Notes under the pieces: model-generated
The model's database searches: none
What the model saw: the letters and a program-made list of their open reading frames with translations, nothing else
Told to the model about the DNA's origin: nothing
Shown: positions 33,941 to 48,610 of the stretch, in pieces
How the letters are laid out: each line of letters starts with the position of its first letter
How positions within the stretch are numbered: position 1 is the stretch's first letter
Position numbers and translations under genes: made by a program
Assembly (NCBI GenBank): GCA_016187945.1
Contig: JACPIT010000009.1
Location: forward strand, 62,001 to 126,000
Length of the DNA: 64,000 nt
Direction: 5' to 3'
DNA from: Opitutia bacterium
GTDB lineage: Bacteria > Verrucomicrobiota > Verrucomicrobiia > Opitutales > Opitutaceae

Positions 33941-33946
33941 AGCGGT

Positions 33947-33979: not shown

Positions 33980-34007
33980 GAACACACGAACTAACACACA
34001 AATTGTT

Positions 34008-34241
34008 TTAGGCGCCGTCGTCGCCGATCGAGGCGGTCGCGCAGCTCTCGGCGGCTTCCTTGCACTTGGCGATCTCTTCGTCGCTCACCGGCTGCTTCGT
34101 GACGTAGGACGTGCCGGTTTCCTCGTTGCGCGCGAAATTGTCCGGCGCGATCACGCGGCATTGGTCGCAGTCGATGCAGCTCGAGTCGACGTAGAAGCGA
34201 CCCGCGACGTTGTAGGAGAGACGATCAGTGAGAGTGGCCAT
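34008..34241 (-). CDS. Single-cluster [4Fe-4S] ferredoxin
   Basis: 77 residues (MATLTDRLSYNVAGRFYVDS). SSCIDCDQCRVIAPDNF provides three cysteines (CxxCxxC) and SCATASI the fourth, where most ferredoxins have Cys-Pro. This is the pattern of small low-potential Fd_4-type ferredoxins. It is divergent from nuoA, 218 bases away; because the operon lacks the NADH module, a role as electron donor to it is tempting but is inference. Confidence 0.88.
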   Translation of the reverse strand: MATLTDRLSYNVAGRFYVDSSCIDCDQCRVIAPDNFARNEETGTSYVTKQPVSDEEIAKCKEAAESCATASIGDDGA

Positions 34242-34459
34242 GGTGGAGGAGGAGTGACGCGCTCACTTTACCCGAACGCGGCGGCGCGCGCTCGCCACGC
34301 CTTGCCGGGCACTTCGCGTTTCTTGGTGAAACGATATTAGTTGCACCCGCCCTAATCGCGCGCCGCAGCCAACGGATGCCCAGCTTCTGACAATTAACGG
34401 AACGGTTCCGGCGTTGAATCGGGATTGGCAGATTCCGAAGCTCGACTTACCTAAAAAAC
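34242..34459. promoter_or_regulatory. Divergent promoter region, ferredoxin and nuo operon
   Basis: The only sizeable non-coding stretch upstream of nuoA. It is less GC-rich near 34390-34455 than the surrounding DNA and must hold the nuo promoter. I cannot assign boxes with confidence. Confidence 0.35.
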
Positions 34460-34831
34460 ATGAACGGCCATCCCCACGCATTCCTGGCCCTCTTCCTTGG
34501 CGTTGCCGTCGCCTTCCCGCTGATCCTTTTGGGTGTCGCGCAGCTTTGGGTGCGGCTCTTCCAGCCGGCCAAGCCGAACGCGCTCAAGAACGCCACCTAC
34601 GAGTGCGGCCTCGCTCCCGCCGGCGATTCGTGGATCCAGTTCAAAGCACACTATTATCTCTACGCGATTCTCTTCCTGATCTTCGACGTCGAGGTGCTCT
34701 TCCTTCTGCCCTTCGCCGTCGCCTTCACCGGACTGCCGGCGGGCGCTCTCGTCGCGATGCTGGTGTTCATTCTTCTCCTCGCCGAAGGCCTCGTGTGGGC
34801 CTGGGCGAGCGGCTACCTGAACTGGAAATGA
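34460..34831 (+). CDS. nuoA: NADH-quinone oxidoreductase subunit A
   Basis: 123 residues with three membrane helices. [36 protein letters not shown] is the conserved TM1-2 loop and TM2, split here by function: the Cys-containing loop contacts the quinone channel. First gene of the operon; the stop overlaps nuoB (ATGA). Confidence 0.96.
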
Positions 34832-35556
34832 GCGACGCTCCCTCCACGCCTTCGCCTGCGGCGCAGCCGCTGGACGAATCTCGCCGTAGCTCCCCGAGCG
34901 AAGGCGGAAACGCCCCCGCACCCTTCCCGGCCGCGGGCAATATCTCCGACGCGGAACGCGAGGAGTTGCGCCGCCACGGCATCCTGCTCACCTCGCTCGA
35001 AGAGCTCTACAACTGGGGCCGCGCGAACTCGATCTGGCCGCTCCAATTCGGCCTCGCCTGCTGCGCCATCGAGATGATCGCGGCCGCCACCGCGCGCTTC
35101 GATATCGCGCGCTTCGGCGCCGAGATTTTCCGTCCGTCGCCGCGCCAAGCCGACCTCATGATCGTCTCCGGCACGGTCACGAAGAAAATGGCGCCGCAAG
35201 TCGTCCGCCTCTGGAACCAGATGCCCGAGCCGAAATACTGTATCGCCATGGGCGCGTGCGCGATTTCCGGCGGTCCGTTCAAGCAAGGCTACAACGTCCT
35301 GAAGGGCGTCGACCGTTTCATCCCGGTGGATATCTACATCCCGGGCTGCCCGCCGCGTCCCGAAGCGCTGCTCAACGGCCTCGTCGAACTCCAGAAAAAG
35401 ATCCAGGCCGAGCGCGTCGCCGGCCCGCAGGCCGCCAAGCACCTCCGCTCGGACGTCCAAAGCGAGTTCCCCGTTCCCGAATACGGCGAGCACGACATCG
35501 TGCCCTCGAAAAATCCCGACGTGTGGTCGCCGCCGTCGTTCCCGCGCAAGGCCTGA
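34828..35556 (+). CDS. nuoB: NADH-quinone oxidoreductase subunit B
   Basis: 242 residues, start overlapping nuoA. Cluster-N2 ligands are present: GLACCAIEM (two adjacent Cys), MGACAISGG and PGCPPRPE. An N-terminal extension of ~45 residues (Ser/Pro/Ala-rich) and a C-terminal extension of ~40 residues make it longer than usual. NuoB passes electrons from N2 to quinone. Confidence 0.97.
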
Positions 35557-35559
35557 GCC

Positions 35560-36279
35560 ATGGAAACTCTCGAACAAATCCGCGACCGTATCGTCGCGCG
35601 CTTTCCCGGCGCCAAGGTCTCGATCCAGCTCAACCCCGGCGCCGCCGCCGAGCACTCGCTGCTCATCGACTCGAAGCTCGGCCGTGAGATCGCGCTCTTC
35701 CTCCGCGACGACGAGGCGCTCCAACTCGATTACTGCTCCAACGCCACCGGCGTCGACTGGCTCGATAAGGAAATCGTCGACGTGAAGAAGACCACCGTCC
35801 CCGACCCCGCCGGTGGTCCGGCCAAAGTCGTCGAGGAGAAATCGAAGCGCACTGAGCCCGGCTACCTTGAGGCCGTCTATCACCTCTACTCGATGGCGCT
35901 GAAGCATGGCCCGGTGATCGTCCGCATGCGCACCGGCAACCGCAGCGACGACGTGAAGCTCCCCTCGCTCACGCCGGTGTGGCGGTCGTGCGATTTTCAG
36001 GAACGCGAAATTTTTGACCTCTACGGCATCGTTTTCGAAGGCCATCCGGATCTCCGTCGTCTCCTGATGTGGGACGAGTTCAAGGATCACCCGATGCGCA
36101 AGGACTACGTCGCGCCGGACGATTTCGAATATGAGCCGACGCCGCACGACGCCGTGCTGGCCCGCGCGAAGCAGCACTACCCATCGCCCGCTCCTGTAGC
36201 CGGGGTCGCCGACCCCGGCCCGGGCTCCACGAGCCCGGCGACAAAGCCCGCAGCGCCCGCTCCGGAGGTGAAGCCATGA
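35560..36279 (+). CDS. nuoC: NADH-quinone oxidoreductase subunit C
   Basis: 239 residues. The C-terminal signature of the 30-kDa subunit is present: CDFQEREIFDLYGIVFEGHPDLRR shortened here to its core EREIFDLYGI, then MRKDYVAPDDFEY. Residues ~211-228 (VAGVADPGPGSTSP) are encoded by an in-frame double hairpin, forming a disordered tail. Stop overlaps nuoD (ATGA). Confidence 0.95.
   Translation: METLEQIRDRIVARFPGAKVSIQLNPGAAAEHSLLIDSKLGREIALFLRDDEALQLDYCSNATGVDWLDKEIVDVKKTTVPDPAGGPAKVVEEKSKRTEPGYLEAVYHLYSMALKHGPVIVRMRTGNRSDDVKLPSLTPVWRSCDFQEREIFDLYGIVFEGHPDLRRLLMWDEFKDHPMRKDYVAPDDFEYEPTPHDAVLARAKQHYPSPAPVAGVADPGPGSTSPATKPAAPAPEVKP
36193..36243. repeat. In-frame double hairpin in the nuoC tail
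   Basis: GCCGGGGTCGCCGACCCCGG is followed by GGGCTCCACGAGCCC, with TGTAGCCGG and CCGGCGACA closing the ends. Same double-palindrome design as 3913-3996, different sequence. Confidence 0.7.
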
Positions 36280-37478
36280 ATTCCTCCGGTCTCTCAGCTC
36301 TCAACTCTCAACTCTCAGCTCCCGCCGGGCTCGGTGGGATCACCGGCCCGACCGTCCGCGCCGTGAAGGACCCGTTCCACGGCGACCTCCTCGAAGTCTC
36401 GATGGGACCGCAGCACCCCTCGACGCACGGCGTGTTCCGCATGGTCGCCACGCTCGACGGCGAACAGATCGTGAAGCTGAAGCCCGTCTTCGGCTACCTG
36501 CACCGCAATCACGAGAAAATCGCCGAGAACACGAGCTACCTCGCGTCGATGCCTTACACGGACCGGCTCGACTACCTCTGCTCGCTCTCGACGAATTGGG
36601 CCTACGCGCTCGCCGTCGAGAAGCTCGCCGGCCAGGCCGTCCCCGATCGCGCGCAATACCTCCGCATCATCCTCGCGGAAATGACGCGCCTGGTGAACCA
36701 CACCTGTCTCGTCGGCTTCCTCTTCAACGACCTCGGCACCTCGTTCACACCACTCCTCTACGGCTTCCGCGAACGCGAAAAATTCCTCGATCTTTTCGAG
36801 GCGCTCACCGGCTCGCGCATGATGTGCAACTACCAGCGCTTCGGCGGCTGCCGCGTCGACCCGACGCCCGAGTGGCTCGCCGCCGCCGCGAAGCTCGTCG
36901 CCGATTATCCGCGCTTCCTCGACGAGTGGGAGCAGATGCTCACCGGCAACGAGATCATGCTCGCCCGCACGCAAGGCATCGGCGTCCTCGACGCGAAAGC
37001 CGCCATCAACGCCGGCATCACCGGCCCGTGCCTCCGCGCCTCCGGCTACAACTACGACGTCCGCAAAGTCGACGGCTACGGCTTCTACCCGCGTTTCGAT
37101 TTCCGCGTCCCGCTCGGCGAGCACGGCGACACCTACGACCGCTACATGATGCGCATTCTCGAAATGCGCGAGTCGGTCAAAATTCTCCAACAAGCCTTCC
37201 GCGATCTCCCCGCCGGCCCGATCATGGACCCGAAGGCGAAGATCCGCGGCTTCCGCCCGAAAGCCGGCGAAGCCTACGGCCGCATCGAGAGCCCGAAGGG
37301 CGAACTCGGTTTCTATCTCATCAGCGACGGCATGCCGAATCCGTATCGTTACCGCGTCCGTCCGCCGACCCTCATCAACCTGACGCTGCTCGAGGAAATG
37401 TGCCTCGGCCACACCGTCGCCGACTCCGTCGTCATCCTCGGCAGCATCGACATCGTCCTCGGAGAAGTGGACCGATGA
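36276..37478 (+). CDS. nuoD: NADH-quinone oxidoreductase subunit D
   Basis: 400 residues with SMGPQHPSTHGVFRM, the quinone-site signature of the 49-kDa subunit, and GERYMMRI-type helices (YDRYMMRILEMRES). The first ~16 residues (MNSSGLSALNSQLSAP) are encoded by a reiterated CTCTCAACT tract placed right after the ATGA overlap. It resembles one arm of the repeats between the later genes. Separate NuoC and NuoD rather than a fusion. Confidence 0.97.
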   Translation: MNSSGLSALNSQLSAPAGLGGITGPTVRAVKDPFHGDLLEVSMGPQHPSTHGVFRMVATLDGEQIVKLKPVFGYLHRNHEKIAENTSYLASMPYTDRLDYLCSLSTNWAYALAVEKLAGQAVPDRAQYLRIILAEMTRLVNHTCLVGFLFNDLGTSFTPLLYGFREREKFLDLFEALTGSRMMCNYQRFGGCRVDPTPEWLAAAAKLVADYPRFLDEWEQMLTGNEIMLARTQGIGVLDAKAAINAGITGPCLRASGYNYDVRKVDGYGFYPRFDFRVPLGEHGDTYDRYMMRILEMRESVKILQQAFRDLPAGPIMDPKAKIRGFRPKAGEAYGRIESPKGELGFYLISDGMPNPYRYRVRPPTLINLTLLEEMCLGHTVADSVVILGSIDIVLGEVDR

Positions 37479-37481
37479 ACG

Positions 37482-37640
37482 CATTTTCGATTTTCGATGG
37501 CAGAAGCCCTGCGGGCTGGACTCGATTTTCGATTGGCGGCTCCGCCGCCCGTCTGAACCGCGCGTCGAGCGGCATCGGCCGCGCGCGGAGCTTCGAGCAT
37601 CCCGAAAATCCAAAATCGAGAATCCAAAATCGAAAATAGC
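37482..37640. repeat. nuoD-nuoI junction repeat, 'ATTTTCGATTTTC' family
   Basis: Left arm CATTTTCGATTTTCGATGG plus GACTCGATTTTCGATTGG; right arm CCGAAAATCCAAAATCGAGA and CCAAAATCGAAAATAG. An ATG at 37475 overlaps the nuoD stop (ATGA) and opens a 54-codon frame (MNAFSIFDGRSPAGW...) through the whole repeat. It ends at TAG 37637, four bases before the nuoI start. Confidence 0.85.
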
Positions 37641-37643
37641 CCC

Positions 37644-38270
37644 ATGCTCGGCACCGGACTCCTCAAAGGCCTCGCCGTCACCGCGAAAAATTTCGTCGGG
37701 AGCTACACCACGCCCGAGCGCATGGTGACGGTCTCGTATCCCGAAGAAAAAGCTCCCATCGGCGAAAACTACCGCAGTTTCCCCTTCCTCGTCAGCGAAA
37801 CCGCCGAGGATCCGATGGGCACGCTGCGCTGCGTCGCCTGCCAGATTTGCGAAAAGGAATGCCCGCCGCAGTGCATCTACATCGAGAAATCGAAGGACAA
37901 AAAGCCCGACGCGACCGGCAAGCAGCAGTTCTACCCCGCGATCTTCGACATCGACACCTCCGTGTGCATGAGCTGCGGCATCTGCGCCGAGGTCTGCCCG
38001 TTCGATTCGATCAAGATGGATAAGGTCTTCGAGGTCGCGCAGTCGAACCGCTTCCAAGGTCTCCTCGTCACCCGCGAACAGCTCGCGAAGTCCAACGCTT
38101 ACTACAACGAGATCCGCCCGGTCGAAGCCGCCGAAGTCGACGCGCGCCTCGCCGCCGACCGCAAAGCCGCCGAAGAAAAAGCCAAGGCCGCCGCTGCCGC
38201 CGCCGCCGCCAAAGCCGCCGCCGCGAAGGCCGCCGCAACACCCCCGGCGAAACCCGACGCCAGCGCCTGA
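37644..38270 (+). CDS. nuoI: NADH-quinone oxidoreductase subunit I
   Basis: 208 residues with two [4Fe-4S] motifs: CVACQICEKECPPQC and CMSCGICAEVCPFDS (clusters N6a and N6b). These carry electrons towards NuoB. The last ~50 residues are Ala/Lys-rich low complexity, absent from typical NuoI, and may be a flexible tail. Confidence 0.97.
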   Translation: MLGTGLLKGLAVTAKNFVGSYTTPERMVTVSYPEEKAPIGENYRSFPFLVSETAEDPMGTLRCVACQICEKECPPQCIYIEKSKDKKPDATGKQQFYPAIFDIDTSVCMSCGICAEVCPFDSIKMDKVFEVAQSNRFQGLLVTREQLAKSNAYYNEIRPVEAAEVDARLAADRKAAEEKAKAAAAAAAAKAAAAKAAATPPAKPDASA

Positions 38271-38272
38271 GC

Positions 38273-38397
38273 AGTGGAAGCTCCAAGCGCCAACCTCCAA
38301 GCACCAGTGAATCTCCAATCCACCAACTCCCAATTTTTCAGCCCTTTGAAGCTTGGTGCTTCTCTGGAGCTTGGATGTTGGAGCTTGGAGCTTTTCC
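38273..38397. repeat. nuoI-nuoH junction repeat, 'AGCTCCAA' family
   Basis: GGAAGCTCCAAGCGCCAACC at the left is answered by GGATGTTGGAGCTTGGAGCT at the right. A GTG at 38274, four bases after the nuoI stop, opens a 47-codon frame whose TGA (38415-38417) overlaps the nuoH ATG. Confidence 0.85.
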
Positions 38398-38413
38398 CCC
38401 TCCGCGCGACCGC

Positions 38414-39661
38414 ATGAGCGCCAACTCAGTTTCCGATTCCTTCCTCGAAGTCCTCCCGCTCATCGTGCGCGACGAGATCGTGGGCCTGTTCCCCGAGTCG
38501 CTGCAGTGGCTCGTCAGCTCGCTCATCACGATCGTCGTGATCCTCGCGGTCTTCGGCCTGTTCTTCGCGTTCACCACGATCGCCGAGCGCAAACTTCTCT
38601 CGCGCCTCCAAAACCGCCTCGGCCCGAACCGCGCCGGTCTGCCGAAGTTTTCCGTCCTGCCGTTTCACCTGAAGCACCGCCTCTGGGGCCTCACGCAACC
38701 GTTCGCCGACGCCGTGAAGGCGCTCACGAAGGAAGACGTCGTGCCCGCCACCGCCGACAAGCTCCTGCACTTCCTCGCGCCCGTCACCGTCGTCGCGTTC
38801 TCGCTGCTCGGTTACGCCGTGCTGCCGTTCGGCCGCCACATGGTGCCGGTCGATCTCGATGCCGCGGTGCTCTACTTCTTCGCCGCCGGCGCCGCCACGG
38901 AACTCGCGATCTTCATGGCCGGTTGGTCGAGCCGGAACAAATACTCGCTCCTCGCCGCCATGCGCGCGCTCGCGCAACTCATCAGCTACGAGTTGCCGCT
39001 GATTCTCTCCGTCGTGCCCGTCATCCTCATCGTCGGCACGCTCTCGACGCAGGAAATCGTCACCGCGCAAGGCGGCTGGGCGCTCGGCTTCCTCCCGCAA
39101 TGGCACGTGTTCACGCCGTGGGGCTTCGCGGGCTTCATCATCTTCCTCGTCGCCGCGCTGGCCGAGAGCAACCGTTCGCCCTTCGACTTGCCCGAGGCTG
39201 AGTCCGAGCTCATCGCCGGCCACCTCACGGAATACTCCGGCTTCAAATACGCGCTCTTCTTCATGGCGGAGTATTTCGGCCTGTTCGCGTTGAGCGGTCT
39301 CGGCATCACGATCTTCCTCGGCGGCTGGCAGGCGCCCCTCCCGTTTCTCGAGTTCATCCCGTCCTACCTCTGGTTCATCGGGAAACTCATCGTGATGGTG
39401 GTCTTCTTCATCTGGGTGCGCGGCACGCTGCTCCGCCTGCGCATCGACCAGCTCACCCGCCTCGCCTGGCAATTCCTCGTGCCGCTCGCGCTGCTCAACG
39501 TCGCCAACGCCGCGTTCTGGGCACTGACGGCCTCGTGGACCGGCCCGCTGCAACTCGCGCGCTGGGCGATCTCCGCCGCGATCATCGTCGTGCCCTTCCT
39601 CGTCATCGGCCGCCGCCTCAACAAAGGCCGAGCCCCCCGCACCTACCGCTACGCCCAATGA
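38414..39661 (+). CDS. nuoH: NADH-quinone oxidoreductase subunit H
   Basis: 415 residues from ATG 38414 (MSANSVSDSFLEVLPL). Eight membrane segments, with RLQNRLGPNRAG near the start, ESNRSPFDLPEAESELIAG in the conserved quinone-cavity loop and FFIWVRGTLLRLRIDQL late. NuoH forms the quinone chamber and links redox chemistry to the pumping arm. Slightly longer than usual at the N-terminus. Confidence 0.97.
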   Translation: MSANSVSDSFLEVLPLIVRDEIVGLFPESLQWLVSSLITIVVILAVFGLFFAFTTIAERKLLSRLQNRLGPNRAGLPKFSVLPFHLKHRLWGLTQPFADAVKALTKEDVVPATADKLLHFLAPVTVVAFSLLGYAVLPFGRHMVPVDLDAAVLYFFAAGAATELAIFMAGWSSRNKYSLLAAMRALAQLISYELPLILSVVPVILIVGTLSTQEIVTAQGGWALGFLPQWHVFTPWGFAGFIIFLVAALAESNRSPFDLPEAESELIAGHLTEYSGFKYALFFMAEYFGLFALSGLGITIFLGGWQAPLPFLEFIPSYLWFIGKLIVMVVFFIWVRGTLLRLRIDQLTRLAWQFLVPLALLNVANAAFWALTASWTGPLQLARWAISAAIIVVPFLVIGRRLNKGRAPRTYRYAQ

Positions 39662-39772
39662 CATTTTCGATTTTCGATTCTCGATTTTCGATTTCTCGCG
39701 CCGCATTGGACGCCGCGCGCGCGATCTCGGATTTCTGCCCAATCGAAAATCGAAAATCCAAAATAGAAAATC
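39661..39772. repeat. nuoH-nuoJ junction repeat, 'ATTTTCGATTTTC' family
   Basis: Left arm CATTTTCGATTTTCGATTCT; right arm CAATCGAAAATCGAAAATCC then AAAATAGAAAATC. ATG 39658 overlaps the nuoH stop, and the 40-codon frame (MTFSIFDSRFSISRA...) ends at TGA 39778-39780, which overlaps the nuoJ GTG start. Confidence 0.88.
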
Positions 39773-39776
39773 TCTC

Positions 39777-40280
39777 GTGACCGCGCTCTTCCTCATCGCC
39801 TTCGTCACTCTCGCGGCCGCCGCGGTCGCGATGTCGCTGCGCAACCTGATCCACAGCGCGCTCCTGCTCATCGCCAGTTGGGCCGGCCTCGCGGGCCTCT
39901 ACCTCTGGTCGGGCGCACAGTTCGTGGCCTTCGCGCAGATCCTCGTCTACGTCGGCGCGATCTCGATGGTCGTGCTCTTCGCGGTGCTCCTCACTAAGCA
40001 AGGTGGCGATCTCGGCCCGATCGAACCGGCGTCCATCTCGCGCGCCATGCTCGCCATCATCGCGGCCGGCGGCGTCGCCGGCGTGTTGATCGGCGCGATC
40101 CTCGGCACGCCGCTCGGCAACGTCGCTTCCGCCGCGCCTGTCACGGTCAGCGTCCGCGACTTGGGCGAACAACTCATGGGCAAGCACGCGCTCTCGCTTC
40201 TCATCGTCGGCCTCATCCTGACCGTCGCGCTCCTTGGCGCCGTCGTGATCGCCGCGCAAGACAAGGAGGACGCGCCATGA
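39777..40280 (+). CDS. nuoJ: NADH-quinone oxidoreductase subunit J
   Basis: 167 residues from GTG 39777 with five membrane segments. AQILVYVGAISMVVLFAVLL carries the pi-bulge TM3 pattern of NuoJ, needed for coupling quinone reduction to the membrane arm. Its stop overlaps an ATG preceded by AAGGAGG, which opens the next junction frame rather than nuoK. Confidence 0.95.
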   Translation: MTALFLIAFVTLAAAAVAMSLRNLIHSALLLIASWAGLAGLYLWSGAQFVAFAQILVYVGAISMVVLFAVLLTKQGGDLGPIEPASISRAMLAIIAAGGVAGVLIGAILGTPLGNVASAAPVTVSVRDLGEQLMGKHALSLLIVGLILTVALLGAVVIAAQDKEDAP

Positions 40281-40289
40281 ATCCCGAAT

Positions 40290-40384
40290 CTTTCCTCTTT
40301 CTCTTAATCTTTCTCTCTGCCTTTCACTCCTCCGCGGCGATCTTCGGACCTGACGAAAGAGAAAGATTAAGAGGAAAGAGAACG
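40290..40384. repeat. nuoJ-nuoK junction repeat, 'CTTTCTCTTAATC' family
   Basis: TTTCCTCTTTCTCTTAATCT at the left, AGATTAAGAGGAAAGAGAA at the right. ATG 40277 overlaps the nuoJ stop; the 43-codon frame (MNPESFLFLLIFLSAF...ERLRGKR) ends at TGA 40406-40408, overlapping the nuoK ATG. A second GGGAGG precedes nuoK. Confidence 0.9.
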
Positions 40385-40404
40385 GTTTCTACGGGAGGTG
40401 CGTC

Positions 40405-40716
40405 ATGACTCCGCTCCAAATCTGCCTCGTCATCTCGACGCTGCTCTTCTGCGTCGGCCTGATCGGCGCCCTCTCGCGCAGCAACAGCATCCTCGTGCTC
40501 CTCGGCATCGAGCTGATGCTGAACGCCGCCAACCTGAACTTCATCGCCTTCTGGCGTTACGGTCCGCACCCGGAGGCCGGCACCGGCGTCATCTTCGTCC
40601 TCTTCTCGATCGCCGTCGCTGCCGCCGAAGCCGCCGTCGGCTTGGCGCTCGTCATCGCGATCTACCGGCATCGCCGCAGCCTGCGGTTGCAAGAGGCCAC
40701 AGACCTGAAGGGCTGA
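40405..40716 (+). CDS. nuoK: NADH-quinone oxidoreductase subunit K
   Basis: 103 residues, three membrane helices. The two buried glutamates of the proton path are visible in LLGIELMLNAANLNF (TM2) and VAAAEAAVGLALV (TM3). Start ATG 40405 is preceded by GGGAGG. Confidence 0.96.
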   Translation: MTPLQICLVISTLLFCVGLIGALSRSNSILVLLGIELMLNAANLNFIAFWRYGPHPEAGTGVIFVLFSIAVAAAEAAVGLALVIAIYRHRRSLRLQEATDLKG

Positions 40717-40728
40717 CGACGAAACGCG

Positions 40729-40850
40729 CCAAAGCTCCAAGCTCCAACCTCCAAGCACCAGTGAATTTTCAATCCACCCAATCCCCACGTTCCGCCCCTT
40801 TGAAGTTTGATGCTTCTCTGGTGCTTGGATCTTGGAGCTTGGAGCTTTCC
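40729..40850. repeat. nuoK-nuoL junction repeat, 'AGCTCCAA' family
   Basis: AAAGCTCCAAGCTCCAACCT at the left, GGATCTTGGAGCTTGGAGCT at the right; close relative of the nuoI-nuoH element, including the central CCTTTGAAG...TGCTTCTCTGG. The frame ending at TGA 40869-40871 (overlapping the nuoL ATG) is open across the whole repeat back to the nuoK stop, but no ATG or GTG start lies at its left edge (only CTG 40713). Confidence 0.85.
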
Positions 40851-40867
40851 CAGCCGCGCGCGCACTC

Positions 40868-42895
40868 ATGACTCTCGCTGCTTCCCAACTCTGGCTCATC
40901 CCCGCACTGCCGCTTGCCGCCGCCGCGATCGGCTCGCTCACGCCGCGCAACGGCCGCGCGATCGCCGCCGGCGCCGCGATCCTCTCGATGGCCGCCGCGT
41001 TCGTCGTATCGTGCTTCGCGCTCTCGACCGCGCTCGCCGATCCGGCCAAGCACCTCGTCGCCAACTTCGCGTGGTTCGACCTCGGCACCGGCGCGCTGCG
41101 CCTCGGCTTCCTGCTCGATCCGCTCACCGCGTTCATGTGCACGATGGTCACGCTCGTGGGCCTGCTGATCTTCATCTTCAGCACCGGCTACATGAAGGAA
41201 GACGCCAATTTCACGCGCTTCTTCTGTTTCCTGAGCCTCTTCGCCGCCGCGATGCTCGGCCTGCTCGTCGCCAACAGCCTGTTGCTCCTCTTCGTCTGCT
41301 GGGAACTCGTCGGCCTCGCCTCGTATCTGCTCATCGGTTTCTGGTTCCACAAACCGTCCGCCGCCGCCGCCGCGAAAAAAGCTTTCATCACCACGCGCAT
41401 CGGCGACCTCGGCTTCCTGCTCGGCCTGCTCTGGCTCCAACACTCGGCCGGCACGCTGCTGTTCTTCGATAACGGCCACGGCGTCCTCGAGTCGTCGGTG
41501 CTCCAGTCGCTCCTCGGCCAGCAAGTCTGCGGCGGCCTCGCCGCCTCGACGGCCATCGGCCTGCTCATCTTCTGCGGCGCGGTCGGCAAGTCCGGCCAAT
41601 TCCCGCTGCACGTCTGGCTCCCCGACGCGATGGAAGGCCCGACGCCCGTCTCCGCGCTCATCCACGCCGCCACGATGGTCGCCGCCGGCGTGTTCCTCAT
41701 CGCCCGCGTTTATCCGCTGATGGCGATCGACCAGATGCTCGCCAACGTCCCCGTGCACGCGCTCACCGTCGTCGCCTTCATCGGCGCGATCACGGCGCTC
41801 ATGGGCGCCTGCATCGCCGTCGCGCAAAACGACATCAAGCGCATCCTCGCCTTCTCCACCGTCTCGCAGCTCGGCTACATGATGCTCGCGATCGGCGTCG
41901 GCTCGTGGACCGCCGCGATCTTCCACCTGCTCACGCACGCCTTCTTCAAGGCCCTGCTCTTCCTCGGCGCCGGCTCGGTCATCCACGCCGCGCACCATGA
42001 GCAAGACATCCGCGCACTCGGCGGCTTGCGCGGACCCATGAAGGTCACGTTCGCCACCTTCGCCGTCGGCATGATGGCGCTCGCCGGCGTGCCGTTCCTC
42101 TTCTCCGGTTTCTGGTCCAAGGAGTCCATCTTGCACGCCGCGCACGTTTGGGACGTCTCGCACATTCCCTTCTACGCCGCGATCGTCGCCGTCGTCCTCA
42201 CCGCGTTCTACAACACGCGCCTGATGGCCGAGACGTTCTTCGGCAAACCCCGCTCGCACGCCTCCGAGCACGCGCACGAAAACGGCCCCGCGATGACCGT
42301 TCCGCTCATCATCCTCGCCACTTTCGCCGTCACGCTCGGCTTCCTCGGCACGCCCGCCTACCCGTGGCTGCAAGCGATGCTCGAAGGCCAGCACGCCGTC
42401 CACGGCCACTCGCTCCTCGAAGGCGCCGGCCTGATGGTCACCTCGATCGTGCTCGTCGCCGTCGGCATCGGCGCCGGCTGGGCGATCTACGGCAACAAGC
42501 CGCGCTCGACCGCCACCGCGCGCGACCCGCTTGAGCAACGCGCCCCCGGCGTGTTCGCCGCGCTCGGTAACCGCCTCGGCTTCGACGAACTCTACGCCGC
42601 CACCGCCTTCAAGGCCAACGACGCCCTCGCCGCGCTCTCCGACTGGTTCGATCGCTACGTGTGGGACGGCGCCGTGCGCCTCCTCGCCGGACTCGGTGAG
42701 TTCACCGGCGTCGTCAACCGCGACGCCGACGAGCAGGGCCTCAACGGCGGCTTCAACTCCGCCGCCGAGTCGCTCCGCACCACCGGCTTCGCCTACTCGA
42801 AGCGGCAAACCGGCGATGCCCACGGCTACCTCCGCACGCTGGTCCTCGGTTTCGTGATCGTCCTCCTCGTCGTCATCTTCGGAGGTGCGCGATGA
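40868..42895 (+). CDS. nuoL: NADH-quinone oxidoreductase subunit L
   Basis: 675 residues from ATG 40868 (MTLAASQLWLIPALPL), an antiporter-like pump subunit. Key motifs: CWELVGLASYLLIGFW with the functional TM5 Glu, KSGQFPLHVWLPDAMEGPTPVSALIHAATMVAAG shortened to its core HVWLPDAMEGPTPVSALIH, and QNDIKRILAFSTVSQLGYM. It exceeds the usual ~610 residues, mostly in the C-terminal part that forms the lateral helix, which would fit a complex with an extra NuoM. Its stop overlaps an ATG (42892) preceded by GGAGG. Confidence 0.96.
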   Translation: MTLAASQLWLIPALPLAAAAIGSLTPRNGRAIAAGAAILSMAAAFVVSCFALSTALADPAKHLVANFAWFDLGTGALRLGFLLDPLTAFMCTMVTLVGLLIFIFSTGYMKEDANFTRFFCFLSLFAAAMLGLLVANSLLLLFVCWELVGLASYLLIGFWFHKPSAAAAAKKAFITTRIGDLGFLLGLLWLQHSAGTLLFFDNGHGVLESSVLQSLLGQQVCGGLAASTAIGLLIFCGAVGKSGQFPLHVWLPDAMEGPTPVSALIHAATMVAAGVFLIARVYPLMAIDQMLANVPVHALTVVAFIGAITALMGACIAVAQNDIKRILAFSTVSQLGYMMLAIGVGSWTAAIFHLLTHAFFKALLFLGAGSVIHAAHHEQDIRALGGLRGPMKVTFATFAVGMMALAGVPFLFSGFWSKESILHAAHVWDVSHIPFYAAIVAVVLTAFYNTRLMAETFFGKPRSHASEHAHENGPAMTVPLIILATFAVTLGFLGTPAYPWLQAMLEGQHAVHGHSLLEGAGLMVTSIVLVAVGIGAGWAIYGNKPRSTATARDPLEQRAPGVFAALGNRLGFDELYAATAFKANDALAALSDWFDRYVWDGAVRLLAGLGEFTGVVNRDADEQGLNGGFNSAAESLRTTGFAYSKRQTGDAHGYLRTLVLGFVIVLLVVIFGGAR

Positions 42896-42903
42896 GCACC
42901 AGC

Positions 42904-43006
42904 TCTTTCCTCTTTCTCTTAATCTTTCTCTTTCTCTCGGCCTTTTTCCGGTCATCTGCGTCTTCGCTCCCTGACGAAAAAGAAAGATTAAGAGGAAAGA
43001 GAAAGA
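42904..43006. repeat. nuoL-nuoM1 junction repeat, 'CTTTCTCTTAATC' family
   Basis: TTTCCTCTTTCTCTTAATCT at the left, AAAGATTAAGAGGAAAGAGA at the right. ATG 42892 overlaps the nuoL stop; the 50-codon frame (MSTSSFLFLLIFLFLS...EKERLRGKRK) ends at TGA 43042-43044, overlapping the nuoM1 ATG. GGAGG precedes both starts. Confidence 0.92.
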
Positions 43007-43040
43007 TGGCCGGCCTGCTCTCGAACGGAGGCCTCGTCCG

Positions 43041-44561
43041 ATGAACAATCTCCCGCTCCTCTCGCTCATCATCTTCGTGCCGTGGGCCGGCGCGCTTCTG
43101 CTCGCCCTCACGCCCAAGCTCCCTGCCGGCGCCAGCCGCGCGCTCGCGCTGTTCTTCAGCCTCTCGACGCTCGCGCTCGGCACAACCGTCCTCTCGGGCT
43201 TCGATCCGCACGAGACGACGCTCCAGCTCGTCGAGAAGCACGCGTGGATCTCCGCGCTGAACGTCCGCTACCACCTCGGTCTCGACGGCCTCAGCCTCGT
43301 GCTCGTGCTGCTTACCGGCGTCATCGCGCCGGTCGCGCTCTTCGGCACCGTCCGCGCCGCGAAACAGCCCGCACTCTACGCCGCGCTATTCCTCTTCCTG
43401 CAAGGTGCCGCGCTCGGCGTGTTCCTCGCGCTCGATTTCTTCGCCTGGTTCATCTTCTGGGAACTGAGCCTCGTCCCCGCGTTCTTCCTCATCAAGCTAT
43501 GGGGCGGCCCCGGCGCCACGCGCGCGGCCTACCAGTTCGTGATCTACACCATCGGCGGCAGCGCGTTCATGCTGCTCGGCTTCGCCGCGCTCTACGCCGC
43601 CACCGGCACGTTCGACTTCGTGCAACTCGCCGCGCTCGCCCAGTCCGGCGCGCTCACCGGCAAACTCGCCGCGCTCGGCAGCTTCTGGCCGCACATCGTT
43701 TTCCTCGGCGTGCTGCTCGGCCTCGCGGTGAAGGTTCCGCTCTTCCCCTTCCACACGTGGCTGCCCTCGGCCTACGCCGAAGCTCCCACCGGCGCGTCGA
43801 TGTTCCTCACCGGCGTGATGTCGAAGATGGGCGTCTATGGTTTTCTGCGGATTCTCTGGGCTCTCTTCCCGTCGCAACTGCACGCCGCCGCACCCTGCCT
43901 CATCTGGCTCGCCGTCGCCGGCGTCGTGCTCGGCGCCTACGCCGCGCTCAAGCAGACCGACCTCAAGCGCATGGTCGCCTACTCGTCGGTCAACCACCTG
44001 AGCTACTGCCTGCTCGCGCTCTTCGCCGTGTCGATGGCCGGCAAGCCCGGTGAAGCCTCCGCGTCCGCGCTCAGCGGCGCGATCCTGCAAATGTTCAACC
44101 ACGGCCTCTCCGCCGCCGCGTTGTTCTTCTGCGTCGGCCTGATGGGAAACCGCTCCGGCGGCCTGCGCGGCCTGAACGATTTCGGCGGCGTCCGCACCGC
44201 GGCTCCCGTCTTCGCCGGTCTGTGCGGCATCTCGATGTTTTCCTCGCTCGGCCTGCCCGGCCTCAACGGCTTCGTCGGCGAGTTCCTGATTTTCCGCGGT
44301 GTCTTCGGCCTCGCGCCGTGGACCGCCGCCGTCTCGACGCTCGGCCTGCTCGCCACCGCGCTCTTCCTGCTCACGTTTTGGCAACGCGTCTTTCACGGTC
44401 CCGGCAAGGGCGCCGGCATCAACTTCCGTGACCTCGACGCCGGCGAAATCGTGACACTGCTCCCGCTGATCGCGCTGATGTTCGTCCTCGGCATCGTCCC
44501 GCAACTCCTCGCCGGTCTCATCAACCCGCTCGTCACCGCGTGGGTGAGCCACCTGCCATGA
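43041..44561 (+). CDS. nuoM: NADH-quinone oxidoreductase subunit M, first copy
   Basis: 506 residues with about 14 membrane helices. FFAWFIFWELSLVPAFFL carries the TM5 Glu, KVPLFPFHTWLPSAYAEAPT the TM7-8 Lys and loop, and LKQTDLKRMVAYSSVNHLSY the second Lys. First of two NuoM-type antiporter-like subunits in tandem. Its stop overlaps ATG 44558. Confidence 0.95.
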   Translation: MNNLPLLSLIIFVPWAGALLLALTPKLPAGASRALALFFSLSTLALGTTVLSGFDPHETTLQLVEKHAWISALNVRYHLGLDGLSLVLVLLTGVIAPVALFGTVRAAKQPALYAALFLFLQGAALGVFLALDFFAWFIFWELSLVPAFFLIKLWGGPGATRAAYQFVIYTIGGSAFMLLGFAALYAATGTFDFVQLAALAQSGALTGKLAALGSFWPHIVFLGVLLGLAVKVPLFPFHTWLPSAYAEAPTGASMFLTGVMSKMGVYGFLRILWALFPSQLHAAAPCLIWLAVAGVVLGAYAALKQTDLKRMVAYSSVNHLSYCLLALFAVSMAGKPGEASASALSGAILQMFNHGLSAAALFFCVGLMGNRSGGLRGLNDFGGVRTAAPVFAGLCGISMFSSLGLPGLNGFVGEFLIFRGVFGLAPWTAAVSTLGLLATALFLLTFWQRVFHGPGKGAGINFRDLDAGEIVTLLPLIALMFVLGIVPQLLAGLINPLVTAWVSHLP

Positions 44562-44576
44562 TTTTCACTCGAAAAA

Positions 44577-44750
44577 CTGAAACGCGAAGGACGCAGAGAT
44601 CGCGGAGGTTTCTCTTTGTTCTTCTCACACCAAGGCAGCAAAGAAAGCAAAGCACCGAGCAGTTCCCCGTCCTTCGCTCCCTTCGCTTCCTTCGTGTAAA
44701 CTCGCCGGTTTTCCTCCTCCGCGCTCTCCGCGACCTCCGCGTTGAAATGT
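44577..44750. repeat. nuoM1-nuoM2 junction repeat, 'CGCAGAGATCGCGG' family
   Basis: Outer arms AACGCGAAGGACGCAGAGAT and CGCGGAGG against CCTCCGCGCTCTCCGCGACC and TCCGCGTT; inner arms AGCAAAGAAAGCAAAGCACC against CGCTCCCTTCGCTTCCTTCG. ATG 44558 overlaps the nuoM1 stop; the 70-codon frame (MIFTRKTETRRTQRSRR...) ends at TGA 44768-44770, overlapping the nuoM2 ATG. Confidence 0.85.
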
Positions 44751-44766
44751 TTGGATCGACCGCCTC

Positions 44767-46314
44767 ATGAACGCGCTTCCCTGCACCATCTACGTGTCCT
44801 TCGCCGGCGCCGCGCTCGCGCTGCTGGCCGGAGCGCGCTCGGCGCAACTGGCGCGCGTCGTCGCCCTCGTCACCGCTCTGACCGCCTTCGGCCTCGCGCT
44901 CTGGGCAGGCGCACACTTCACGCCGACCAACTCGCTCCAGACGCTCGTCGACGCCCCGTGGATCGCCGAACTCGGCGTTCGCTACCACCTCGCCGCCGAC
45001 GGCATCAGCATGACGCTGATGGTCCTCACCGGCCTCGCCGCGACCGTCGGCGTGCTGTTCTCCTGGAACATCGAGGAACGCGTCGGTGAATTCTTCGCGC
45101 TCTACCTCGCGCTCATCGGCGGCGTCTTCGGCGTGTTCCTCAGCGCCGACGGCTTCGTGCTCTTCGTCTTCTACGAAATCGCGATCGTCCCGAAATACTT
45201 CCTCATCGCGAACTGGGGCTCCACCAACCGCGAATACGGCGCGATGAAGCTCGTGCTCTACTCGTTCGCCGGCAGCGCGCTCGTCATGGCCGGCCTGCTC
45301 TGGGCCTACGCGGCGTCGGGCGGCGTCGGCTTCGGCCTCGCCGAGCTCGCGCAAGCCGCCACGCAGTTCACGCGCTTCGAGCAACTCGGCATGTTCGCGC
45401 TCGTCTTCACGGGTTTCGCGATTCTCGCCGGCATGTTCCCCTTCCACACCTGGGCGCCCACCGGCCACGTCGCCGCGCCCACCGCCGCCTCGATGCTGCT
45501 CGCCGGCGTCGTCATGAAACTCGGCGCCTACGGCTGCCTGCGCGTCGCGATGGCGACGTTCCCGACCGGCCTCGCCACCTTCGCGCCCGTCATCGCCTGG
45601 CTCGCCATCATCGGCATCGTCTACGCCGGCCTGATCGCGCTCGTGCAGGAGGACTTCAAATTCGTCATCGGTTACTCGAGCGTCAGCCACATGGGCTTCG
45701 TGCTGCTCGGCCTTGCCGCCGCCAACACCGTCGCCGCCAGCGGCGCCGTGCTGCAGATGTTTTCGCACGGCATCGTCGCCGGCCTGCTCTTCGCCGTCGT
45801 CGGCCGCATGGTTTACGACCGCACGCACACCCGCAAACTCGCCGATCTCCGCGCGATGCCGCTGCACCGGCTCCTGCCGTTCGCCGCGGTGACGTTCGTC
45901 ATCGCCGGCCTCGCCTCGATGGGCATGCCGGGCTTCAGCGGCTTCCCCGCCGAACTGACGATCCTCGTCGGCACCTGGAAAACCTCGCCGCTCTGGGCGC
46001 TCGTCGCCGCCACCGGCGTGCTGATCGCCGCCGCCTTCACGCTGCGCGCGATCCAAGTCTCCTTCTTCGGCAAGACCGACGCCGCCAAGGTGGAGCGCGT
46101 TGACCTCAACGCGCTCGAGCCGGTTGAGGTCAACCGGCTCCACCCCGGACATCATGACCTCCCACCGATCACCTGGCCCGAAAAAGCCGGCGCGATCCTC
46201 ATGATCGCCGCGATGGTTTACCTCGGCCTGAATCCCGACGCGCTGCTCGACTGGATCCGCCCCGCGCTCGAATCCCCGCTCTTCCGCGCCGCGCTGACAG
46301 GAGGTGCGTCATGA
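44767..46314 (+). CDS. nuoM: NADH-quinone oxidoreductase subunit M, second copy
   Basis: 515 residues, an additional NuoM-type pump subunit. VLFVFYEIAIVPKYFLIANW has the TM5 Glu; GMFPFHTWAPTGHVAAPTAA and LVQEDFKFVIGYSSVSHMGF carry the expected Lys/His sites (Phe-Lys replaces Leu-Lys in the latter). It is divergent from the first copy, so an old duplication. Residues ~441-460 (VERVDLNALEPVEVNRLHPG) come from an in-frame double palindrome in a loop before the last helix. Stop overlaps ATG 46311, preceded by GGAGG. Confidence 0.93.
   Translation: MNALPCTIYVSFAGAALALLAGARSAQLARVVALVTALTAFGLALWAGAHFTPTNSLQTLVDAPWIAELGVRYHLAADGISMTLMVLTGLAATVGVLFSWNIEERVGEFFALYLALIGGVFGVFLSADGFVLFVFYEIAIVPKYFLIANWGSTNREYGAMKLVLYSFAGSALVMAGLLWAYAASGGVGFGLAELAQAATQFTRFEQLGMFALVFTGFAILAGMFPFHTWAPTGHVAAPTAASMLLAGVVMKLGAYGCLRVAMATFPTGLATFAPVIAWLAIIGIVYAGLIALVQEDFKFVIGYSSVSHMGFVLLGLAAANTVAASGAVLQMFSHGIVAGLLFAVVGRMVYDRTHTRKLADLRAMPLHRLLPFAAVTFVIAGLASMGMPGFSGFPAELTILVGTWKTSPLWALVAATGVLIAAAFTLRAIQVSFFGKTDAAKVERVDLNALEPVEVNRLHPGHHDLPPITWPEKAGAILMIAAMVYLGLNPDALLDWIRPALESPLFRAALTGGAS
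46089..46144. repeat. In-frame double palindrome inside nuoM2
   Basis: GAGCGCGTTGACCTCAACGC (ending GCTC) then CCGGTTGAGGTCAACCGG, enclosed by GGTGGAG/CTCCACC. Same family as 3913-3996, with which it shares the GTTGACCTCAAC core. Confidence 0.88.
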
Positions 46315-46319
46315 TCCCC

Positions 46320-46438
46320 GAATCTTTCCTCTTTCTCTTAATCTTTCTCTTTCTCCTGCCTTTCTCCGCCGCCGTGCACCTCCACCTGCGTTCCCAAACT
46401 GGAGAAAGATTAAGAGAAAGAGGAAAGAGAAAGATTGG
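46320..46438. repeat. nuoM2-nuoN junction repeat, 'CTTTCTCTTAATC' family
   Basis: AATCTTTCCTCTTTCTCTTA at the left, TAAGAGAAAGAGGAAAGAGA at the right. ATG 46311 overlaps the nuoM2 stop; the 52-codon frame (MIPESFLFLLIFLFLL...ERLRERGKRK) ends at TGA 46467-46469, overlapping the nuoN ATG. Ribosome sites GGAGG precede both starts. Confidence 0.92.
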
Positions 46439-46465
46439 CAGCCTGCGGCTGCAGGAGGCGCAGTC

Positions 46466-47941
46466 ATGAACGCTTTGAGCTACGCTGAACTCGCCCGGGC
46501 GTTCCTGCCCGAAATCAATCTCACCGTCGGCGCACTGTTCGTGCTCGGTTTCGATCTCGCCACCGGTCGCGGCAAAACCACCGCGCAACGCCTGCGCCCC
46601 GCCGTGTTCTTCGGCATGATCGCGATCATCGCCGCCCTCTACGCGACGATCAGCGCCGGCGTCGGCGGCCCCGTCTTCGGCGGCATCTTTTCCCTCGACG
46701 CGCTCACGCTCGCCACCCGCCTCGGCGTGCTCCTGCTCGCCTGGCTCACGCTCGGCCTGCTCAACGACGTCGTCGCGCTCCGTCACCCGGCCGAATACGT
46801 CGCGATCATCCTGCTCGCCACCGCCGGCTTCACGCTCATGGCGGGCGCGCAACAGCTCCTCGTCGCCTTCCTCGCGCTCGAACTCGCCAGCCTCGCGCTC
46901 TACATCCTCGCGGGCTGGGACAAGACCTCGCCGCAATCCGCCGAAGCCGCGCTGAAGTATTTTCTCTTCGGCGCGATGTCGGCGGCGTTCCTCCTCTTCG
47001 GTTTCAGCCTGCTCTACGGCGTCACCGGCTCGATCGATCTCCCGATCATCGCGATGCAGATTTCGGTCACCAGCATGTCGCCGCTCGTCGTGGTTGCGCT
47101 CGCGATGATCATCGTCGCCTTCGGCTACAAGGCCGCCGCCGCGCCATTCCACCTCTGGGCGCCCGACGCCTACCAAGGCGCGCCCGCCTCCTCCGCCGCG
47201 CTCATTGCCTCGGCCTCGAAACTGGCCGGCTTCGTCTTCTTCCTGCGTCTGCTCTGGCCGGGACTCGGCTTCACCGCCGGTCGCATCAGCGAGCTGCCCC
47301 TCGTCGTCGGCTGGGCGCCCATGGTCGCGCTGCTCGCACTCGCCTCGCTGCTCGTCGGCAATTTCGGCGCGCTCGCGCAATCCAACGTCCGCCGCCTGCT
47401 CGCCTACTCGGCCATCGCCCACGCTGGCGCCATGCTGCTCGGCGTCATCGCCGCCGGCCGCGCCGGCCCCGGCCCCGTTTTCTACTACGCGGCCACCTAC
47501 GGCCTCGCGACCGTCGGCTGCTTCGGCGTCGTCGCCATCGTCGAGCGGGCCGGCCGCTGCCAGAACCTCACCGATCTCGCCGGCCTCCACAAACGCTCGC
47601 CGCTGCTCGCCGGCTGCCTCGCGGTCTTCGTGCTGTCGCTCGCGGGCGTGCCGCCGCTGGCCGGTTTCTTCGGTAAATTCTCCGTCTTTGCCTCCGCGCT
47701 GAAACTCTCCGGTCTGCACGGTCCGGTCGGCTGGCTCGCCTTCGCCGCCATCGCGCTCAGCGCCGTCGGCCTCTACTATTATCTGCTCATCCTGAAGCAG
47801 GCCCTCGTCGCCGCGCCGCAGGAAAACGCCGCGACGAAGATCGAAGTGCCCGTCCAAGCCGGCCTCGCCCTCCTGATCGCCGGCACCCTGATCGTCCTCC
47901 TCGGCCTCTTCCCGTCGAAGATTCTGCAGCTATTCAGCTAA
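46466..47941 (+). CDS. nuoN: NADH-quinone oxidoreductase subunit N
   Basis: 491 residues from ATG 46466 (MNALSYAELARAFLPE), preceded by GCAGGAGGCG. Third type of antiporter-like subunit: LALELASLALYILAG with the TM5 Glu, FKAAAAPFHLW-type segment (GYKAAAAPFHLWAPDAYQGA), and LAQSNVRRLLAYSAIAHAGA. Last gene of the operon; no nuoE, nuoF or nuoG follow, and a toxin-antitoxin pair comes next. Confidence 0.96.
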   Translation: MNALSYAELARAFLPEINLTVGALFVLGFDLATGRGKTTAQRLRPAVFFGMIAIIAALYATISAGVGGPVFGGIFSLDALTLATRLGVLLLAWLTLGLLNDVVALRHPAEYVAIILLATAGFTLMAGAQQLLVAFLALELASLALYILAGWDKTSPQSAEAALKYFLFGAMSAAFLLFGFSLLYGVTGSIDLPIIAMQISVTSMSPLVVVALAMIIVAFGYKAAAAPFHLWAPDAYQGAPASSAALIASASKLAGFVFFLRLLWPGLGFTAGRISELPLVVGWAPMVALLALASLLVGNFGALAQSNVRRLLAYSAIAHAGAMLLGVIAAGRAGPGPVFYYAATYGLATVGCFGVVAIVERAGRCQNLTDLAGLHKRSPLLAGCLAVFVLSLAGVPPLAGFFGKFSVFASALKLSGLHGPVGWLAFAAIALSAVGLYYYLLILKQALVAAPQENAATKIEVPVQAGLALLIAGTLIVLLGLFPSKILQLFS

Positions 47942-48003
47942 CCCCTCGTTCACGCTCTGGAAAGGCCCTTGCGGAGCATCCACGCCGGGCTAGTTTGCCC
48001 TTC

Positions 48004-48219
48004 ATGAGCATCGCCGAACTGCGAAAACTGCCCGCCGACGAGAAGCTGAAAATCATCGAGGCACTCTGGAGCGATCTCGCCGGCGACGAGGCCGCGTTCG
48101 ACAGCCCGGCGTGGCACGAGACGGCATTGCGTGAAACCGCGTCCGATTACGCGGCCGGCAAGATCGAAACTGTCGATTGGGAAGCCGCGAAAAAAGAACT
48201 GCGCCAGCGGTTCGAATGA
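48004..48219 (+). CDS. Addiction-module antitoxin
   Basis: 71 residues from ATG 48004 (MSIAELRKLPADEKLKIIEA), an acidic helical 'addiction module component' protein. Its stop overlaps the toxin start (ATGA), the usual coupled arrangement. Same family as the protein at 15349. Confidence 0.8.
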   Translation: MSIAELRKLPADEKLKIIEALWSDLAGDEAAFDSPAWHETALRETASDYAAGKIETVDWEAAKKELRQRFE

Positions 48220-48515
48220 GAGTCCGCGTTCTCCGTTCTGCGTTGGCGGACCTGGCGACCGGCCGTCAATTTTACGACCGACATGGCGCAACGGTTGGGG
48301 CCTATTTCTTCGACAGCCTCTTCGCCGAAATCGATTCGCTCGTCCTGCATGGCGGCATTCACCCTGTTCGCTTCGGTTTTCACCGCCTGTTGGCGAAGCG
48401 CTTTCCGTTCGCGATCTATTACCAGGTAATCGGCAGCGAGGTTCTCGTCTTTCGCGTCCTCGACTGCCGGCGCGACCCGAACTGGATTCGCGCCGCATTG
48501 AAAAAGCCGCACTGA
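48216..48515 (+). CDS. ParE/RelE-type toxin
   Basis: 99 residues (MRVRVLRSALADLATGRQFYD). Family landmarks: ADLATGRQFYDRHG (helical hairpin), FRLLAKRFPFAIYY-like strand (HRLLAKRFPFAIYYQV) and the C-terminal VLDCRRDPNWIRA. Toxins of this fold inhibit gyrase or cleave mRNA on the ribosome; which one is not decided. Complete, unlike the relic at 15570. Confidence 0.8.
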   Translation: MRVRVLRSALADLATGRQFYDRHGATVGAYFFDSLFAEIDSLVLHGGIHPVRFGFHRLLAKRFPFAIYYQVIGSEVLVFRVLDCRRDPNWIRAALKKPH

Positions 48516-48610
48516 TCGCCAGCACTCTTTCGGCCCTCGTGTGTTTCGTGGGCAGCGTCCGCGAGTTTCGCGTCTCGCCTTTCCGCTTCGGCCGGCTTCA
48601 GTGCGGCGCG

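Follow-up and report, generated by a model that had tools for sequence, protein, structure and literature searches.

A nuo operon (nuoA-B-C-D-I-H-J-K-L-M1-M2-N, plus strand, 34460-47941) lies in a stretch of 64,000 nucleotides (nt), referred to below as the window, on contig JACPIT010000009.1 of an Opitutia bacterium of the family Opitutaceae (assembly GCA_016187945.1), and every gap between its nuoD and nuoN genes is filled with an insert. Among relatives of the same family, inserts at the nuo junctions whose stop and start codons natively overlap keep predominantly to one architecture, namely, a start codon overlapping the upstream stop, an open run of codons across the insert, and a stop overlapping the downstream start (ATGA...NTGA), here called a strict bridge. 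Such inserts probably survive where translational coupling of the flanking genes survives, through the addition of a mini-cistron.

Gene ends and starts in the window were read from the sequence. The nine genes from nuoD to nuoN matched their own subunit families in NCBIfam (nuoI, nuoH, and nuoJ below the curated cut-offs), and nuoA, nuoB, and nuoC were identified by their position and their conservation in relatives. The gaps measured 165 bp (D-I), 143 bp (I-H), 115 bp (H-J), 124 bp (J-K), 151 bp (K-L), 145 bp (L-M1), 205 bp (M1-M2), and 151 bp (M2-N). A preceding sequence-only reading had placed an inverted repeat of 100 to 180 bp in each of the eight; inserts were indeed present in all of them, with a measured range of 115 to 205 bp, and an inverted repeat was recovered in seven (among the 25 longest of 28 pairs). 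At M1-M2 the tool paired one arm only with the downstream gene, so that the repeat there is degenerate. The remaining details of that reading held: A-B, B-C, and C-D have essentially no gap (-4, 3, and -4) and carry no insert, six gaps open with an ATG overlapping the previous stop, seven (all but D-I) are open in a frame whose TGA overlaps the next start, and five combine both features in complete bridges of 40, 43, 50, 70, and 52 codons.

The operon was then located in other genomes by NuoL and NuoM searches, with matches in 118 of the family's 252 genomes. The analysis covered 100 stretches belonging to 98 relatives, and 19 further relatives, mostly the lowest scoring, were left out. The resulting data set comprised 876 junction rows from 99 genomes (the 98 relatives and the window). 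A stop/start overlap (gap of -4 or -1) turned out to be the usual state at six junctions, I-H (53 of 73 rows), H-J (49 of 82), J-K (69 of 82), L-M1 (72 of 98), M1-M2 (67 of 96), and M2-N (83 of 90), and the same junctions were filled by inserts of varied sequence in different genomes. The closest relative by NuoL, G001 (92%), has the overlap at I-H, H-J, L-M1, M1-M2, and M2-N, all of which are filled in the window; L-M1 is empty (-4) in G001, M1-M2 is a -1 overlap in both G001 and G007, and M2-N is empty in both. Since G001 has the overlap at the same junctions, these five insertions in the window, or their loss in G001, are recent. Strict bridges accounted for 59 of the 84 filled rows at the six overlapping junctions. 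They measured 24 to 108 codons and occurred in 36 of the 99 genomes and in 10 genera.

The phase of the inserts was determined for rows with a gap of 61 to 449 bp and an NTGA at the left end, grouped by blastn within each junction. Phase 1 (a gap of 1 modulo 3) is the only one that places the end of the frame on the next start overlap. At the six overlapping junctions 44 of 49 insert groups were in phase 1, four in phase 0, and one in phase 2 (binomial P = 2.7e-16), and with genera g3 and g6 left out the count was 44 of 45. The control junctions without a native overlap (D-I, K-L, and B-C) gave 18, 14, and 14 groups in phases 1, 0, and 2, i.e., 18 of 46 in the coupling phase, and the two classes differed significantly (Fisher P = 2.8e-7). 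The expectation that phase at homologous junctions of relatives would be nonrandom was thus borne out. Four A-B groups belonged to neither class (two in phase 1 and two in phase 0). Nine rows of 36 to 60 bp or of 450 bp and more at the six junctions fell outside the phase, openness, and bridge tests; they included three short strict bridges (in G018, G162, and G198).

An open phase-0 insert becomes an N-terminal fusion and escapes the list of gaps, and the contrast of phase 1 with phase 2 is therefore safer: it was 44 to 1 (P = 1e-12) at the overlapping junctions and 18 to 14 at the controls. Downstream N-terminal extensions of at least 15 residues were found in 6 of 393 overlap rows, five of them at I-H (of 53 rows), one at L-M1 (of 72), and none at H-J, J-K, M1-M2, or M2-N; with all six added as phase 0, 44 of 55 groups were still in phase 1 (P = 2e-12). 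Several trivial sources of the bias were considered and rejected. Shared descent is ruled out by the blastn grouping before counting and by a looser, over-merging alignment grouping, under which 35 of 41 groups were in phase. Misplaced starts are ruled out because the gap modulo 3 is the same whichever start of the downstream frame is taken, hidden fusions were counted directly and are few except at I-H, and chance is rejected by the counts of both phase and openness.

The avoidance of stops, which the sequence-only reading had proposed to test, was also seen: 59 of 62 in-phase rows were open, and the remaining two frames of those 59 were open only 9 and 17 times. We also applied a more general bridge test, covering ten junctions with rows, that allowed the frame to start as much as 15 nt past the upstream stop and to end as much as 15 nt short of the downstream start. 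It found 94 of 159 filled junctions bridged, compared with 15.6 when copies were shifted in frame, 45 when the insert was reverse-complemented, and 34.2 when it was shuffled. This test had started from 165 filled rows, six of which were set aside as the downstream frame opens near the upstream stop; among these were a strict bridge (M1-M2 of G128) and two I-H rows whose left ATGA is just the start of nuoH. Where a left start was present (72 rows), the frame ended on the overlap in 59, up to 15 nt before the start in 4, earlier in 9, and past it out of frame in none. In-frame run-ons could not appear among these 72 under the start rule and were counted separately as the extensions given above.

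The Shine-Dalgarno (SD) sequences at the right ends of the bridges followed the empty sites. At empty junctions an SD preceded the start in 56 of 68 cases at J-K, 65 of 71 at L-M1, and 71 of 83 at M2-N (192 of 222), and in 0 of 43 at H-J and 1 of 65 at M1-M2 (1 of 108). Bridges carried it at the right end in 6 of 7, 11 of 15, and 3 of 3 cases at the former three junctions (20 of 25) and in 0 of 11 and 0 of 20 at the latter two (0 of 31). For inserts at the control junctions the figure was 6 of 71. The right-end SD thus mirrors the native junction, which suggests that the usual ribosome recognition of the downstream start is reproduced, beyond mere preservation. As a separate observation, bridges of the CTTTCTC kind (window, 46437-46465; J-K of G165; L-M1 and M2-N of G175; L-M1 of G168) share right-tail variants GGCAGCCTGCGGCTGCC followed by an SD. 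This tail spans two genera, and the own-genome matches of the window copy mostly stop before it; the tail may be an exchangeable end module.

The sequences between these ends are repeats of diverse kinds. In genome-wide searches, made with the D-I and M2-N inserts, the former proved to belong to a dispersed family with 52 matches in its own genome and the latter matched 115 pieces, the J-K and L-M1 inserts among them; a search of all eight inserts in one 400-kb stretch gave three to five sites each, nuo included. Single linkage on permissive terms (E < 1e-3 for any stretch in common) sorted the 59 bridges into 18 groups, the largest chain of which holds 36 bridges and probably joins several families through nested or simple stretches. 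Inverted repeats scored above all 20 shuffles (ungapped score) in 37 of the 59, and GTAGG-type stem-loops were present in several inserts. A search of window positions 33000-49000 against Rfam at the gathering score gave no match.

The bridge peptides are little constrained. They vary from junction to junction and, at a given junction, often from genus to genus, and the pooled ratio of nonsynonymous to synonymous changes (pN/pS) was 0.81 over eight hand-chosen pairs of homologous bridges. That all eight pairs are open (chance, 0.004) was dropped as evidence, since the pairs had been picked among bridges and nonopen homologues exist.

Our explanation of these data runs as follows. The stop/start overlaps between nuo genes would receive dispersed, often palindromic repeats of several families, and any spacer there exceeding about 20 nt would disrupt the termination-reinitiation coupling of the gene pair. 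The survivors would chiefly be those with a start overlapping the upstream stop, an open run, and a stop that overlaps the start of the next gene; a single coupled junction would thereby become two, with a mini-cistron carrying the ribosome across. Selection would act on the frame, its openness, and the native initiation signal (an SD or none) and hardly on the peptide. Coupling is reported to be nearly abolished at a spacing of about 20 nt in Haloferax volcanii and Escherichia coli, and overlaps are reported to be enriched among subunits of heteromeric complexes, which fits complex I (both PMC10666635). The sequence-only reading had proposed that coupling is preserved across the inserts; phase and openness support this, and ribosomes would accordingly pass through the repeats, translating the bridges and reinitiating at their right ends. 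The cost of inserts of other kinds would then be lost coupling and not Rho polarity alone.

We weighed this explanation against four others. If inserts needed only protection from Rho, it would suffice for the inserted RNA to be covered by ribosomes, and the overlap geometry would be a by-product; any translated insert would be protected, and the bridges are open. But frames running into the next gene would give equal cover, and there were no out-of-frame run-ons among the 72 rows with a left start and few in-frame extensions (the 6 of 393 above, five at I-H). The SD pattern, moreover, follows the native junction. The absence of out-of-frame run-ons and the rarity of fusions outside I-H favour reinitiation geometry over mere ribosome cover, and we regard Rho protection as an unlikely explanation. 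The mechanism of insertion alone could account for the bridges if the elements targeted and duplicated DTGA sites with no selection on the frame. Such target sites are reportedly described by Supply et al. 1997, the original paper on the mycobacterial interspersed repetitive units (MIRUs). In favour of this alternative, NTGA stands at both ends in 66 of the 84 rows, the two 16-nt stretches preceding the ends resemble each other a little more when taken from one genome than from different genomes (6.20 versus 5.76; 2 of 2,000 shuffles), and the L-M1 inserts of G168, G172, and G175 have a near-identical SD-start stretch at both ends. Duplication, however, would set the ends and not the phase, and of those 66 rows 60 are in phase 1, two in phase 2, and four in phase 0, the phase being kept although the lengths of the inserts vary; the 12 nt after NTGA, furthermore, show no such similarity (3.59 versus 3.50). 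We consider insertion mechanism alone very improbable. A long target-site duplication as a general rule likewise found no support in those 12 nt and was rejected.

Two further alternatives give the insert a function of its own. The hairpins might be RNA elements serving stability or processing between subunit genes, the frame being secondary, as the inverted repeats in 37 of the 59 bridges could indicate; yet the other 22 fail by the ungapped score, Rfam gave no match at 33000-49000, and this explanation does not predict the phase, for which reasons we give it little credence. The products of the bridges might instead be small functional proteins in their own right, acting, for instance, in complex I. 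Some bridge peptides are hydrophobic (SFLFLLIFLFL), and a coupled cistron would presumably be made at near subunit levels, but with sequences that often differ between genomes at one junction and with the pN/pS given above, such a role is scarcely believable.

Several observations weigh against the explanation by preserved coupling. Among the 84 filled rows at overlapping junctions, 25 fall short of a strict bridge: in 12 no start overlaps the stop of the upstream gene, and 13 have such a start with the end at another place. They come from genera g3 (8 of its 9), g6 (2 of 2), g1 (6), g61 (5), g7 (3), and g16 (1), so that g3, with one strict bridge in nine, and g6, with none in two, deviate as genera. 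H-J is the least regular of the well-filled junctions (11 of 21 strict), and two inserts in G002, which belongs to the genus of the window, are unbridged. At C-D, which natively overlaps (51 of 67), the single filled row is in phase 2 and unbridged. The SD pattern has its own exception at I-H, where 2 of 3 bridges carry an SD and only 3 of 52 empty sites do, and I-H is also where in-frame fusion can accommodate insertions (5 of 53 overlap rows). The control junctions also form bridges of the short-gap kind (D-I, 12 of 35; K-L, 13 of 28; B-C, 4 of 8), against 0.8, 3.0, and 0.5 bridges, respectively, in shifted copies. Finally, the signal outside nuo is weak. At the often filled MoxR-DUF58 junction (30 relatives) 9 of 16 double-NTGA gaps were in phase (P = 0.05), with seven strict bridges. 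Over three stretches of 400 kb the double-NTGA gaps numbered 43, of which 24 were in phase and 20 bridged, eight of these in nuo; the non-nuo gaps gave 16 of 35 in phase (P = 0.09), gaps with the left start only gave 17 of 72, and those without the left start gave 68 of 192. At the rbfA-nrnA-truB-ribF junctions 2 of 86 were filled, and neither was a strict bridge.

Two of these cases are of interest in themselves. In genus g3 (L025, L079, and L094) the nuo gaps are filled and hardly ever bridged, as if coupling had been abandoned. The MoxR-DUF58 junction (L229 to L258) is a second hotspot of repeat insertion in the relatives; its repeats are varied and its frame bias is less pronounced.

TABLE 1 Genes and intergenic frames of the nuo operon (positions in the window)
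Feature	Position	Strand	Basis or remarks
nuoA	34460-34831	+	Position, conservation
nuoB	34828-35556	+	Position, conservation
nuoC	35560-36279	+	Position, conservation
nuoD	36276-37478	+	NCBIfam
D-I open reading frame (ORF), 54 codons	37475-37639	+	Insert is the gap, 37479-37643; ATG overlaps nuoD stop; TAG stop lies 4 nt ahead of nuoI ATG (short gap, no strict bridge)
nuoI	37644-38270	+	NCBIfam (below curated cut-off)
I-H ORF, 47 codons	38274-38417	+	Insert is the gap, 38271-38413; GTG at 38274, 3 nt past nuoI stop, to TGA overlapping nuoH ATG
nuoH	38414-39661	+	NCBIfam (below curated cut-off)
H-J bridge ORF, 40 codons	39658-39780	+	Insert 39662-39776; ATGA to GTGA; no SD
nuoJ	39777-40280	+	NCBIfam (below curated cut-off)
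J-K bridge ORF, 43 codons	40277-40408	+	Insert 40281-40404; ATGA to ATGA; SD at both ends
nuoK	40405-40716	+	NCBIfam
K-L frame, 52 codons	40713-40871	+	Insert is the gap, 40717-40867; open into nuoL ATGA; nuoK stop overlapped only by CTG (40713)
nuoL	40868-42895	+	NCBIfam
L-M1 bridge ORF, 50 codons	42892-43044	+	Insert 42896-43040; ATGA to ATGA; SD at both ends
nuoM copy 1	43041-44561	+	NCBIfam
M1-M2 bridge ORF, 70 codons	44558-44770	+	Insert 44562-44766; ATGA to ATGA; no SD
nuoM copy 2	44767-46314	+	NCBIfam
M2-N bridge ORF, 52 codons	46311-46469	+	Insert 46315-46465; ATGA to ATGA; SD at both ends
nuoN	46466-47941	+	NCBIfam

The cluster at 34460-47941 contains two nuoM copies, and between nuoA and nuoN there is no nuoE, nuoF, or nuoG. 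Directly after nuoN lies a probable toxin-antitoxin pair (48004-48515), comprising an Unstab_antitox protein (PF09720, 50.1 bits) and a ParE-like partner scoring 20.6 bits, below the cut-off of 23.

Some repeats appear to lie inside the genes themselves. A palindrome with 86% complementarity is situated in frame within nuoM copy 2 (46089-46144, residues 441 to 460), in a stretch whose length and sequence are highly variable among 13 aligned genomes, with similar residues in some others; it has the appearance of a repeat inserted in frame, in the manner of a Rickettsia palindromic element (RPE). NuoH of G001 (L009) is extended at its N terminus to 32 residues above the median, the extension starting with MSADLFCRSLLAGD, and the L-M1 bridge of G008 (L011) reads FCRSLLAGD from a GTAGG stem-loop repeat. 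The kind of repeat found in this bridge seems to be tolerated at I-H of G001 as a protein fusion. A translated module at 34864-34908 (NuoB residues 13 to 27), with similar stretches in the NuoI or NuoC tails of relatives such as G001, G012, G160, and G164, is perhaps another dispersed repeat in frame.

The closest known parallel in principle is offered by the MIRUs, mobile repeats described as inserting at start codons with an ORF coupled at a -4 spacing (Brown and Wade, PMC12548453), the coupling being held, in the accounts given there and in PMC2734929 and PMC4128351, to leave gene expression nearly intact. As with a MIRU, the D-I and M2-N inserts are repeats dispersed in their own genome, and the insertion is at a start codon with an ORF sharing 4 nt with the gene that follows (strict in 59 of 84 rows), so the nuo bridges would, by analogy, follow the same principle. 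They differ in several respects. MIRUs are characterized in those sources as repeats of 40 to 100 bp, often in variable tandem arrays, whereas the nuo inserts are not one homologous family (18 groups among 59 bridges), are often palindromic, and occur in one operon across ten genera, and their frame bias was measured against empty homologous sites.

Other systems share single features. RPEs are repeated palindromes, roughly 150 bp long, that sit within coding regions without breaking the frame; as outlined in PMC10969869, they are translated inside the host ORF, whereas the 59 strict bridges have a start and a stop of their own. Fusions of the RPE kind also occur at nuo junctions, as a separate, rare class (the six extensions noted above). 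The enterobacterial repeats RU-1 to RU-3 are likewise small mobile repeats with open frames, though reported as fusions with other ORFs, in a text that leaves operons unmentioned (PMC2759123). Opitutus terrae is reported to be highly enriched in GTAG repetitive extragenic palindromic (REP) sequences, repeats associated with REP-associated tyrosine transposases (RAYTs), and REPs are known between unidirectional genes (PMC3733652). The GTAGG-type stem-loops of several inserts may be of this kind; the passages on these REPs, however, describe no coupling, operons go unmentioned in that study, and many nuo inserts resemble other families. The geometry of the strict bridge at both ends is the -4 geometry of the ATGA termination-reinitiation overlaps described in PMC6728339 and PMC10666635, unlike which the coupled cistron is a repeat insert and not a gene. 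Finally, mgtQ is a short ORF between two operon genes that affects translation of the second gene, but it is summarized as regulated and sequence dependent (PMC8092293), whereas the bridge sequences are not conserved between genera. Judging by titles and abstract openings, we did not find such bridges described in the family of the window.

Repeat insertions of this kind amount to natural experiments on translational coupling. Filled and empty versions of one junction can be compared across species, and the inserts, through their phase, openness, and SD, can then report which pairs need coupling and which signals serve it. They also bear on the dispute over whether post-termination ribosomes scan long gaps, since with such scanning the inserts would need neither openness nor phase, and they present a route from repeats to short, probably translated ORFs. 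We tentatively raise the possibility, which we hold at somewhat less than an even chance, of a general operon rule by which a foreign piece in a tightly coupled gene pair would persist mainly as an extra cistron repeating the initiation grammar of the junction on both sides. If that rule is true, the mobile palindromes of this family would be continually converted into translated mini-genes, as many as eight in one operon, and would serve both as a lasting supply of new small proteins and as a natural indicator of the gene pairs that need coupling.

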